Source: Gemmatimonadaceae bacterium (GTDB lineage Bacteria; Gemmatimonadota; Gemmatimonadetes; Gemmatimonadales; Gemmatimonadaceae). Taken from it: a DNA stretch of 35,760 nt. A model generated the notes under the pieces. That model saw only the letters and a program-made list of their open reading frames with translations. It did no database searches and was not told the DNA's origin. Location: positions 1 through 35,760 of the forward strand of contig JADGQS010000017.1 in the NCBI GenBank assembly GCA_017881585.1, read 5' to 3'. Position 1 is the stretch's first letter; each line of letters opens with the position of its first letter. The translations under genes and the position numbers were made by a program. This document shows, piece after piece, positions 4,474 to 34,927 of this stretch.

Positions 4474-4582
4474 CAGGAACGAGCGACGGGTGAGGGGCTT
4501 CCAAGAAGCGACGAGCGCCTCTCACCCGTCGCTCGTTCCTGTTGGTACCGTCGCTCGTAGCTGTTCGTCCCGTCGCTCCTCG
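4455..4582. repeat. Palindrome built of 22-bp tandem units
   Basis: A perfect 36-bp inverted repeat is seen at 4459-4494 and 4521-4556, with a 26-nt loop. The right arm is itself part of a tandem array: units at 4526-4547, 4548-4569 and a partial unit at 4570-4582 all begin CCGTCGCTC and are spaced 22 bp apart. The left arm carries the reverse of the same units, including the partial one at 4455-4467. It lies between the divergent TPR gene and uvrA, so it could affect both promoters. It may be related in origin to the 7-bp-period elements elsewhere in the window. Confidence 0.9.
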
Positions 4583-9160: not shown

Positions 9161-9192
9161 TGCAGTCAGGCCTCTATGCAGTCAGGCCTCTA
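9161..9192 (+). repeat. 16-bp perfect tandem duplication
   Basis: TGCAGTCAGGCCTCTA occurs at 9161-9176 and again at 9177-9192 without a mismatch, followed by the AT-rich TTTATAGA. It lies in the gap before the YbjN-like gene. It could be a recent slippage or recombination product. A promoter in the AT-rich part is possible but I could not pair it with a good -35. Confidence 0.85.
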
Positions 9193-9292
9193 TTTATAGA
9201 TGCGCGACTAGCGGTTTCCGAGTGTCGGAGTGAAACTTCGTCATGGCTCCCCGGCGTATTGAACGCTGAAGCCCAACCACCGAGAAACTCCT

Positions 9293-10461: not shown

Positions 10462-10472
10462 CGTTGCCCGCC

Positions 10473-11615
10473 ATGGGCGCTGACAGGTTGGTGAATGCCG
10501 GCGCGGTGCGCCGCGTCCAGCTCCTGCCGGGGCTCACGGCGGTCGTCTTTACCATCCTCCTGCTCTGGCTGGCGGGCAGGGTGGCCGGTCTGTTGCTCCT
10601 GCTCTTCATCGCGGTGCTCATCGCGGTCTATCTCGACGCGCTGAACGAATTCATCGCCGCGCGCACCAAGCTCGGGCACAGGTCCGCGTTCGCCCTTGCG
10701 CTCTTCCTCACGCTCGTCGTGCTGACGGGAATCGCCGCGCTGCTCGTTCCGCCGCTGGTGGAACAGACCCGGCAGCTCATCCTGAAGCTTCCGGACTACG
10801 CGATCGCGTGGAAGGACCGGCTCGGCCGGCTCCCGCAGCAGTTCCCGGCGCTCCAGCCGATGCTTGGGCCAGACGCGCAGTCGCAGTTCGTGTCGTCGGT
10901 TCTCGATCAGGCGCGGGGTCTCGTCGGGGGTCTGCTTCCGAAGGTGTTCGACGTCGTGCACGGGTTCATCGATGTCGCCTCGACGCTCGCCATGGCGTTG
11001 TACCTGGCGTTGCATCCCGCGTCGTACCGCGACTTCTTGGTTTCCATCACGCCGCCGCGGCATCGTGACGCCACGCGTGACGTGCTCACGGCGCTCGGCA
11101 AGACGCTCCGCGCGTGGGTGCTCGCACAGCTGCTCACGCTGGCCGTGCTCGGCGCGATGATGGCCATCGGTTTGCGCCTGCTGAACGTCCCGTACTGGCT
11201 TACGTTCGGCATCTTCTGCGGCCTCGCCGCCATCGTGCCGTTCTTCGGCACGTTGATCTCGACCATCGTGCCCGCGCTCTTCGTGCTCGGCGGCGGCGGC
11301 GGCCTCGGGGGCGCGCTGCTCGTTCTTCTCCTCGGCGTACTCGCGCATCTCATCGAAGGCAACGTGATCGCGCCGCTCATCATGCAGCGAGGCGTGAACC
11401 TTCCCCCGGTCTTGTCGATCATGGCGGTGCTGATCTCCGGCACGCTGCTCGGGCCGTTCGGCCTGCTCGTCGCGATCCCTGCGCTTTGCGTCGTGATGGT
11501 GCTCATTCGAAAGGTCCTCATCGAACGCGTGTACGGAGACGTCGCGACTCCGGAAGAGCATCGCGAGGACGCGGAACTCGCGCTCGCGCCCGCCAACCCG
11601 GGTCCGGCGGAGTAG
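10473..11615 (+). CDS. AI-2E/PerM family membrane protein
   Basis: The protein has 380 residues from the ATG at 10473; a TTG at 10464 in the same frame is an alternative start with GGAG at a better distance. It is polytopic: paired helices at the N-terminus (LTAVVFTILLLWLAGRVAGL and the next), a third (FALALFLTLVVLTGIAALLV), a soluble middle region with LLPKVFDVVHGFIDVASTL, and a bundle of C-terminal helices ending GPFGLLVAIPALCVVMVLI. This matches the AI-2E transporter (UPF0118/PerM) family, whose members include autoinducer-2 exporters and Na+/H+ antiporters; the substrate cannot be read from sequence. The last 30 residues are hydrophilic and acidic. It follows pspA by 11 nt and its transcript probably ends at the 11789-11823 hairpin. 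Confidence 0.9.
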   Translation: MGADRLVNAGAVRRVQLLPGLTAVVFTILLLWLAGRVAGLLLLLFIAVLIAVYLDALNEFIAARTKLGHRSAFALALFLTLVVLTGIAALLVPPLVEQTRQLILKLPDYAIAWKDRLGRLPQQFPALQPMLGPDAQSQFVSSVLDQARGLVGGLLPKVFDVVHGFIDVASTLAMALYLALHPASYRDFLVSITPPRHRDATRDVLTALGKTLRAWVLAQLLTLAVLGAMMAIGLRLLNVPYWLTFGIFCGLAAIVPFFGTLISTIVPALFVLGGGGGLGGALLVLLLGVLAHLIEGNVIAPLIMQRGVNLPPVLSIMAVLISGTLLGPFGLLVAIPALCVVMVLIRKVLIERVYGDVATPEEHREDAELALAPANPGPAE

Positions 11616-11640
11616 CGGTAGTCCGTTGGCGGTGGAACAG

Positions 11641-11945
11641 GGATGAGTGGGGAGATTCGACCCGATGCAGGATGCAGAAGAGGAATGCGGAGACAGGGAC
11701 AAGTCGACCCAATGCAGAATGCAGAAGAGGAATGCGGGATGCGGATAAGAGTTGAGACGCGAGTTGGATGCGGGGGTGCCAAACAACGAAGGGCGCGACT
11801 CACTCGAGTTCGCGCCCTTTCTCATGTCTCCCTTCTTGGTACCGCATCCCGCATTCCTCTTCTGCATTCTGCATCGGGTCGAGATCCCGCATCCCGCATT
11901 CCTCTTCCGCATTCTGCATCGGGTCGAATCTCACCACTCATCCCT
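11641..11945. repeat. Long palindrome of 33-bp units with 7-bp period
   Basis: Two near-identical 33-bp units (11658-11690 and 11705-11737) are followed, after a central hairpin, by two reverse-complement copies (11849-11881 and 11894-11926). Inside each unit the words GATGCAG, AAGAGGA and ATGCGG repeat at 7-bp steps. The flanks also pair: GGATGAGTGG at the left end with CCACTCATCC at the right end. The whole gap between the PerM-type gene and the small ABC ATPase (11616-12021) is therefore one composite palindrome of about 305 bp. No open reading frame with coding character was seen in it. Confidence 0.92.
11789..11823 (+). terminator. Intrinsic terminator at palindrome centre
   Basis: A 10-bp stem AAGGGCGCGA / TCGCGCCCTT (11789-11798 with 11810-11819) has an 11-nt loop and runs into TTTCTC. 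It lies at the centre of the long palindrome and is preceded by an A-rich stretch (CCAAACAACG), so it could work in both directions. It probably ends the sdaAA to PerM-type transcript. Confidence 0.75.
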
Positions 11946-12021
11946 CTCCCTCCGCACTCTTTCGCCATCGCGCGCAAAAACTTGGTGACACTCCACGCCG
12001 CCGCCGCGTGCACATTGCCGC

Positions 12022-12744
12022 GTGTCCCCGTTCGCGCTCGAACTCCGCAGCGTTACCCGCCGCTATCGCGCCGGCGTCACCGGTTGCTCCGGTGAAGTCA
12101 CCGCGCTCGACCGGGTCTCGCTGACCGTCGCTCCGGGTGAGTGCGTGGGCGTGGCCGGCGCTCCCGGGTCCGGCAAGAGCACGCTGCTCCTGTGCGCCGC
12201 CGGGATTCTCCGGCCGCACGAGGGCACGGTCCGCGCCGTTCCTGCCGCGTTCGTGGCCCGTCGCGGCAGCAGCGAGGCCCAGCTTGGCTCGCACGCCGCG
12301 CTCACCCACGCGCTGCGCGCCGCGCCGCGGCTGCTCTGTCTCGACGACCCGCTCGCCCTGCTCGACGAGTCCGCTCGCGAGCGCTATGTCACGCTGCTCC
12401 ACAAACTCCGGGGAGCCGGTGTCGCCGTTCTCATCAGCGGGCGAAATCCGCAGACGCTCGATTCCTCCTCGTCGCGCATCGTCACGCTGGAATCCGGCCG
12501 GATTTCGCGGGCAGTCCAGCGGCGTCGCACGCTGGAGCTCGAAGTCGGCATGCCGTCGTACGCGGCGACGGCGCTCGCGAACCGCATCCCGAGCGTCCGC
12601 AGACTCGGGCACGCGCTGCGCGTTGCGCTCGACGACGTCACCGCGGAAGAGGTGCTGAGCGCGTGCCTCGCGCTGGGGATCCGCGTGCACGGGTCGCGCG
12701 TCATTACGACGGCGGCGCCGGGGAGGGTAGCGGAGGCCGAGTGA
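12022..12744 (+). CDS. Shortened ABC ATPase lacking the helical subdomain
   Basis: The protein has 240 residues from a GTG at 12022; no clear Shine-Dalgarno. Walker A GAPGSGKST is at 46-54 and Walker B LLCLDD at 104-109, about 55 residues apart where ABC ATPases normally need about 110. The missing part is the Q-loop and most of the helical subdomain. The signature is degenerate (RGSSEAQ in place of LSGGEAQ), the catalytic Glu after Walker B is Asp 109, and the H-loop His is absent (LISGRNPQ). The last 60 residues (LELEVGMPSYAATALANRI onward) resemble the C-terminal extension of ABC-2 exporter ATPases. The frame is open with strong codon bias, so it is a real gene. No permease is adjacent. 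It may bind nucleotide without efficient hydrolysis. Function unknown. Confidence 0.8.
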   Translation: MSPFALELRSVTRRYRAGVTGCSGEVTALDRVSLTVAPGECVGVAGAPGSGKSTLLLCAAGILRPHEGTVRAVPAAFVARRGSSEAQLGSHAALTHALRAAPRLLCLDDPLALLDESARERYVTLLHKLRGAGVAVLISGRNPQTLDSSSSRIVTLESGRISRAVQRRRTLELEVGMPSYAATALANRIPSVRRLGHALRVALDDVTAEEVLSACLALGIRVHGSRVITTAAPGRVAEAE

Positions 12745-14300: not shown

Positions 14301-14373
14301 GCTGACGTAGCTCAAATGGCAGAGCACCTGATTTGTAATCAGGCGGTTGCGAGTTCGATTCTCGCCGTCAGCT
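14301..14373 (+). tRNA. tRNA-Thr (TGT)
   Basis: This is a 73-nt cloverleaf: acceptor GCTGACG pairs with CGTCAGC, the anticodon stem CCTGA/TCAGG encloses a loop with TGT at 14334-14336 (reads ACA), and the T loop is TTCGATT. Discriminator T; CCA is not encoded, so it must be added after transcription. First of four tRNAs in the same order as E. coli thrU-tyrU-glyT-thrT. Confidence 0.97.
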
Positions 14374-14515
14374 CTGCTGTCTGCGGGAGTTTCGAGAGTT
14401 AAGGCCGATGGGTACGGGTCGGTGAGGGGCGACGAGTGAGGGGAACAGAATCGGGCGTTGCGGCATCGAGCAGGTGATGGGTGAGCGGGAACTTCGTTGG
14501 ACATTGTCGCATCCA

Positions 14516-14598
14516 GGTGGGGTACCCAAGTGGCCAACGGGAGCAGACTGTAAATCTGCCGGCTCACGCCTTCGAAGGTTCGAATCCTTCCCCCACCA
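14516..14598 (+). tRNA. tRNA-Tyr (GTA)
   Basis: This is an 83-nt class II tRNA: acceptor GGTGGGG pairs with CCCCACC, anticodon stem GCAGA/TCTGC with loop CTGTAAA (anticodon GTA), a long variable arm, T loop TTCGAAT and discriminator A. No encoded CCA. The preceding gap of about 140 nt holds G-rich short-word sequence (GGTGAGGGG and GAGTGAGGGG) but no gene. Confidence 0.96.
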
Positions 14599-14682
14599 TA
14601 ACGGAGCGGGATTCGCGGGTCGGTGGAGAGTTCGAGCGACCGCGTGCAGGGAAGCAGGGATGGGCAGCGAAGGGCCGGGTTT

Positions 14683-14755
14683 GCGGGAGTAGCTCAGCTG
14701 GTAGAGCGCAAGCCTTCCAAGCTTGATGTCGCGGGTTCGAGCCCCGTCTCCCGCT
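14683..14755 (+). tRNA. tRNA-Gly (TCC)
   Basis: This is a 73-nt tRNA: acceptor GCGGGAG pairs with CTCCCGC, anticodon stem CAAGC/GCTTG with loop CTTCCAA (anticodon TCC, reads GGA), T loop TTCGAGC. Discriminator T and no encoded CCA. Confidence 0.97.
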
Positions 14756-14775
14756 CTGAAGGACGCACGACGAGT

Positions 14776-14848
14776 GCACGCGTAGCTCAGTCGGTAGAGC
14801 ACCCCCTTGGTAAGGGGGAGGTCATCGGTTCAATCCCGATCGCGTGCT
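14776..14848 (+). tRNA. tRNA-Thr (GGT)
   Basis: This is a 73-nt tRNA: acceptor GCACGCG pairs with CGCGTGC, anticodon stem CCCCC/GGGGG with loop TTGGTAA (anticodon GGT, reads ACC), T loop TTCAATC. Discriminator T and no encoded CCA. In E. coli the gene after this tRNA is tufB; here it is a repeat element and rpmG. Confidence 0.97.
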
Positions 14849-34746: not shown

Positions 34747-34927
34747 GAGGGCGAGAATGAGTAGCGATGAGAGGTGAGTACGAGAGCGAGGGTTGAACGC
34801 GCGCGTCAGTTCGCCCACTTCCACTTTACGCCCACTCCCACTTTGCTCCCACTCAAACTCAACGCTACTTTCTCCAACTCATCCCTCCCACTCGTACTCG
34901 TCTCTCCCACTACCCCTCTCCCACAAT
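34747..34927. repeat. Purine/pyrimidine-asymmetric short-word repeat before fusA
   Basis: 34747-34792 is purine-rich (GAGGGCGAGAATGAG, then GATGAGAGGTGAGTACGAG). 34811-34927 is pyrimidine-rich with many CCCACT and ACTCGT words. The purine arm is an imperfect reverse complement of the last part of the pyrimidine arm (ACTCGTACTCGTCTCTCCC). It is the most degenerate of the short-word elements, and the 7-bp register is only partly kept. No gene was seen in it. Confidence 0.65.

Follow-up and report, generated by a model that had tools for sequence, protein, structure and literature searches.

A palindrome in a Gemmatimonadaceae genome and its probable membership of a dispersed hairpin family associated with PF05635 genes

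Layout of the window palindrome

The window analysed here (G000:C134) is a stretch of 35,760 nucleotides from a Gemmatimonadota metagenome-assembled genome (MAG), G000, of 3.09 Mb in 240 contigs. Between a gene read as an AI-2E-type permease (10464–11615, forward strand) and a putative ABC ATPase gene recognized by its Walker A motif (12022–12744, forward strand), the window contains a large palindrome, which leads to a family of dispersed hairpin elements and to the PF05635 (23S_rRNA_IVP; IVP) genes that lie between their arms. The outer left arm GGATGAGTGGGGAGAT (11641–11656, forward strand) is followed by core unit 1 (TCGACCC-GATGCAGGATGCAGAAGAGGAATGCGG; 11657–11690, forward strand) and by core unit 2, which together with GGGATGCGG forms the inner left arm (11704–11744, forward strand). 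Beyond a central segment (11745–11841) lie core unit 3, which constitutes the inner right arm (11842–11882, reverse strand), core unit 4 (11887–11927, reverse strand) and the outer right arm (11928–11943, reverse strand), which ends in CCACTCATCC. The direct 34-bp units on the left (11657–11690 and 11704–11737) are 94% identical, and the direct 41-bp units on the right (11842–11882 and 11887–11927) are 98% identical. The complementarity is 90% between the outer arms (11629–11690 and 11894–11955) and 98% between the inner arms (11704–11744 and 11842–11882).

An earlier note, made from the letters of the window, described duplicated 33-bp units on each arm, the left pair being mirrored by an inverted right pair. 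The comparison bears out this arrangement with unit lengths of 34 bp on the left and 41 bp on the right. The flanking sequences also pair as proposed, GGATGAGTGG (at 11641) with CCACTCATCC, with the right end at 11943, two bases before the 11945 given there. In contrast, the palindrome is not "near-perfect", being interrupted by a centre of ~97 nt.

Folded as RNA, the palindrome region reaches −243.8 kcal/mol versus −118.1 kcal/mol (sd 5.6) for shuffled sequences, and none of 100 shuffles is as low (z = −22), which indicates folding far beyond chance. The centre is exchangeable: in other elements of the family its place is taken by another spacer or by an IVP gene. Here it carries the hairpin AAGGGCGCG...CGCGCCCTT (11789–11819, forward strand), the GC stem of which (GGGCGCG...CGCGCCC) is followed by just TTTCTC. 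Of the terminator proposed earlier for this position, the GC hairpin is present, but the T-run is weak and a rule-based terminator scan of the window detected none; a role as a weak terminator is plausible. Many elements of the family lack the central hairpin, and AAGGGCGCG hairpins are also present in congeners free of the core repeats.

The dispersed core family and the gene between its arms

The 25-bp core was searched, with one mismatch allowed, in 18 congeners and in the remaining genomes of the family. It is present in 67 copies in G000, 92 in G011, 56 in G002 and 28 in G014, with nearly equal numbers on the two strands, and is absent from the 14 other congeners searched. The remaining family genomes yielded one match and reversed-pattern controls yielded zero. 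Named records containing the core are all Gemmatimonadetes MAGs, such as fen_1231 and Umea3_bin-3837. Neighbouring units face inward ('+-') in 41 cases and outward ('-+') in one, with spacers mostly of 60–150 bp; the inward pairs, near gene 3´ ends, are typically some 100–140 bp apart. By approximate gene calls, the stop codon of the gene that reads into the outermost unit is a median of 44.5 bp away and, in 49 of 56 cases, no more than 100 bp away; 16 element sites are convergent versus 6 divergent. The window palindrome is probably one of the miniature, non-autonomous copies of a hairpin-element family that is dispersed in the genome. A lone core unit without a partner arm was also seen right behind a stop codon, at the same position in two species (L027 in G000:C202 and L053 in G011:C83).

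Among 43 inward pairs, two have a spacer longer than 600 bp, both of which contain an IVP gene, while all the others are separated by at most 152 bp. In every one of the four carriers, a single PF05635 gene of one subfamily lies between core arms (G000:C83, G011:C98, G014:C19 and G002:C11), and IVP is the only gene type found there; the association of arms and gene is well supported. The proteins of G002, G014 and G011 score 46.7–49.2 bits against PF05635 and that of G000 scores 45.8 bits, with a curated cut-off of 33.8. In total, the carriers have 7–11 PF05635 genes per genome and the non-carriers 0–4. In G002, the core copies flanking the IVP gene share a G002-specific variant core with copies elsewhere in the genome.

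For more than 25 years, IVP proteins have been known from open reading frames (ORFs) that lie in 23S rRNA intervening sequences and have no assigned function. The G000 and G011 genes have a dN/dS of ~0.2–0.3, which indicates purifying selection on the protein. Their products are 69% identical, compared with 93–95% for the host proteins at the window site, which suggests that these genes are either not simple vertical orthologs or unusually fast-evolving. The predicted IVP structure (mean pLDDT, the predicted local distance difference test score, 90.6) is a four-helix bundle, and its best structural matches are solved S23/IVP proteins: 2gsc (Z 16.6, 1.4 Å over 111 residues) and 2rld (Z 15.9, 2.0 Å over 108 residues). 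The next matches, among other helical bundles, include Avd of a diversity-generating retroelement (8ub7_E, Z 13.0; 4dwl_D, Z 12.7). Matches to pectin methylesterase inhibitors and to further helical bundles were regarded as reflecting a common fold.

Turnover of elements, genes and arms among relatives

The two genes flanking the window palindrome are syntenic in the relatives, and the conserved permease gene served as the anchor for finding the orthologous site. A small element occupies this site in G000 and G011. In G002 it holds an IVP element whose insert of ~560 bp contains a PF05635 ORF and is bordered by five units at one end and two at the other; in G014 it is a short, element-free gap. 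The comparison of this gap among close strains, which the earlier note had called for, finds it filled, IVP-bearing or empty by species. The IVP gene between core arms also changes place, occupying three sites in the four species. The site common to G000 and G014 is empty in G011 and G002. In G002 the gene lies at the window site, and the G011 site is occupied by another palindrome in G000, by a core element in G014 and by nothing in G002.

The two arms of an element appear to evolve in concert in two genomes. The distance between left and right arms is 1.67 within elements versus 2.59 after shuffling in G000 (P = 6e-4, permutation) and 1.10 versus 2.42 in G011 (P = 5e-5); the same test in G014 was not significant. 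The centre at the window site of G011 aligns poorly with that of the window and shows an 87% match over 140 bp to an element of G000 that is not orthologous, which suggests an exchange of centres. Arm likeness in G000 and G011 fits the suggestion that the units are kept alike by conversion, and together with the G011 centre it also fits the continuous regeneration that had been proposed for the palindrome. Directed mutation was rejected as the source of the arm differences, which are symmetric (G/A 16, A/G 15) with no adenine-directed sign.

At one G000 locus (L020, G000:C3; orthologs L261 and L274), the outermost bases of the element, TGCAGAAGTGA, resemble the inverted host sequence of the far side, TCACTTCTGCA. 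This mirroring looks as if copying of flanking DNA had enlarged the palindrome.

A candidate two-component system and its rivals

To characterize the generality of the association, a profile of the four IVP proteins was applied to 179 genomes of the family, which revealed 55 genes in 32 of them; in another family of the same order, subfamily relatives occur in 2 of 102 genomes. With a fixed test, inverted repeats flank 32 of 40 subfamily genes and 9 of 30 other PF05635 genes, compared with none of 600 random gaps, which were drawn from contig stretches of carrier genomes, a part of the genomes tested. Eighteen different arms were then joined as a single query and searched in 15 genomes; about 27 candidates were scored per genome, so that the counts of dispersed arms are lower bounds. 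Of the 145 matches listed, 144 are on an arm of the very genome searched; the remaining one is a G012 match to the arm of G007, a congener. Arms are clearly dispersed beyond the IVP gene in G000, G014, G016, G149, G152, G155 and G093, and slightly so in G161 and G002.

A second IVP gene of G000 (G000:C138:10052–10761; L186) has its own arm family, with the words GAGTGGCGAG and GAGTGGGGAG at ~20 loci and 11 adjacent pairs, all of which face inward. By eye, the outer arms of the window palindrome seem to be composed of the words of this arm family.

Taken together, we favour, with a probability of roughly 0.6, a family of dispersed hairpins paired with IVP that resembles the REPIN–RAYT system, IVP taking the place of the transposase. 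REPINs are doublets of repetitive extragenic palindromic (REP) units that go with a Y1 tyrosine transposase, the REP-associated tyrosine transposase (RAYT; PF01797), and the same unit flanks this one gene (PMC3116915). The elements described here share with them short units in inverted, hairpin-forming pairs, a mostly intergenic location, copy numbers in the tens, single-unit remnants (PMC3116915) and one gene in the genome flanked by the same repeats, here IVP and not RAYT. They differ in that the protein is a four-helix bundle and in that the present arms are longer, mosaic and genome-specific, with miniature elements of ~200–300 bp. The defining Y1 transposase was not detected: in a search limited to this family, PF01797 was found in 0 of 18 congeners while control genomes were positive. 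A RAYT was accordingly rejected as the mover in these 18 genomes.

The 23S rRNA intervening sequences, for example that of Coxiella burnetii, encode S23/IVP proteins; the one described in PMC4990558 lies in helix 45 of 23S rRNA and is cut by RNase III. A PF05635-type ORF within a hairpin of terminal inverted repeats is common to them and to the present elements, which, however, lie between protein-coding genes and have many miniature copies. Miniature inverted-repeat transposable elements (MITEs) likewise comprise short non-autonomous elements with inverted ends and gene-carrying full-length relatives. In contrast to MITEs, no cognate transposase was recognized here (PF01797 and PF00078 searched), the gene between matching ends is IVP, no clean target duplication is seen, and the arms are concerted while the centres are exchanged.

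In the favoured reading, the elements would form a two-component selfish system in which the IVP protein works in trans on the hairpin that its own arms make, with full-length elements bearing the gene and many miniature copies depending on it. The protein would recognize the arm hairpin, as DNA or RNA, and assist the formation of new copies, with a preference for intergenic spots right behind stop codons; both the causal role of IVP in movement and the chemistry of movement are inferred. Through their homologous arms, copies would swap centres, be it an IVP gene, a hairpin or a spacer, and arm conversion would keep the two sides of an element alike, which would account for concerted arms with different centres at one site. 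More generally, it is possible, at somewhat less than even odds, that a class of mobile palindromes has IVP four-helix-bundle proteins as its trans-acting factor. Each IVP lineage would then spread the arm family that belongs to it, with no recognizable transposase or reverse transcriptase involved, and would give rise to dozens of miniature hairpins at gene 3´ ends.

If true, this would be a new two-component class of bacterial mobile palindromes, similar to REPIN–RAYT but built on a different protein fold, and it bears on what S23/IVP proteins do and on how rRNA intervening sequences arose. A 1993 proposal, as cited in PMC4990558, regards the IVP ORF as the mobility component of the intervening sequence. 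That proposal lacked a test system; IVP genes flanked by arms that are dispersed in most of the genomes examined, with empty and filled sites among close relatives, make it directly testable. In the literature searched, on IVP together with dispersed palindromes and on palindromes of Gemmatimonadetes, no report of the association was found, which is weak evidence, with bioRxiv and most subscription papers outside the search.

Several observations weigh against this interpretation. The matches of G175, G132, G007 and G012, among those listed, are confined to the IVP gene itself, as are those of the third G000 IVP gene (C182), and the G085 arm, a tandem GCGTGGCT array, is to be discounted. The arms at the core-type IVP gene of G000 deviate from the genome consensus. 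The four carriers may be one clade, in which case the co-occurrence of gene and repeat does not represent four independent events. Filled and empty sites were inspected in pairs for a target duplication; no clean one was found, the borders being ragged and too diverged to read, and no transposition intermediate was seen. Being repetitive and rich in G/A, the arms are prone to similarity by chance and by slippage. Four-helix bundles are not known to have nuclease or strand-transfer activity, and the system would therefore depend on an enzyme of the host or on some unseen partner. Separately, in G085 (C2; L244), GCGTGGCT arrays lie beside the IVP gene and also at several other places of the genome.

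That no catalytic activity of IVP is known is also consistent with a passenger role, in which IVP genes settle inside MITE-like palindromes that are moved by an unrelated transposase or by host recombination. Palindromes of different families are nested at one site, and the inverted repeats around 9 of 30 other PF05635 genes likewise point in this direction. We nevertheless consider this explanation unlikely. No gene but IVP was found between core arms, and the arms are genome-specific yet each set encloses IVP, so that every element would need a separate IVP acquisition. The absence of PF01797 from the 18 congeners argues in the same direction, within the limit of that one transposase family.

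Alternatively, the palindromes may be host structures functional at gene 3´ ends, in termination, mRNA 3´-end protection or supercoiling, that have grown by template switching, the link to IVP being secondary. Their position close behind stop codons, the excess of convergent sites, the AAGGGCGCG hairpins of repeat-free congeners and the apparent mirroring of host flank sequence at one locus all agree with such a role. However, presence/absence and turnover between close relatives, the many elements without the hairpin and the negative terminator scan of the window do not, and the IVP gene and genome-specific dispersal are left unexplained, which makes this account improbable.

The resemblance of the IVP model to Avd, a component of the ribonucleoprotein of diversity-generating retroelements, together with the very stable hairpin of the arms, would suit a retro-mechanism in which IVP partners a reverse transcriptase and RNA is the intermediate in copying the arms. 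The shared four-helix-bundle fold may, at Z ~13 for helical bundles, mean a common arrangement only. The reverse transcriptase domain RVT_1 (PF00078) was looked for in 12 element-bearing genomes and not detected in 11 of them, among which are the window genome and a single-contig assembly. A reverse transcriptase was thus rejected as the partner of IVP in those 11 genomes, and with the symmetric arm differences the retro-mechanism appears very improbable. The sole RVT_1 domain in the 12 genomes is L255 (G093:C547:3147–3941). Misassembly of palindromes in a short-read MAG, the caveat of the earlier note, is very unlikely: although G000 is in 240 contigs and some copies lie at contig ends, the layout recurs at dozens of loci in four MAGs and again at the orthologous site in a relative that was assembled separately, and the arms are non-identical, unlike those of a mirrored misassembly.

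Elsewhere in the window, an Rfam search revealed tRNAs only, and four clustered tRNA genes lie at 14301–14848 (Thr, Tyr, Gly, Thr). Short tandem repeats, by eye unrelated to the core, are located at 4526–4578 (period 22), 9161–9193 (period 16) and 34812–34854 (period 17).
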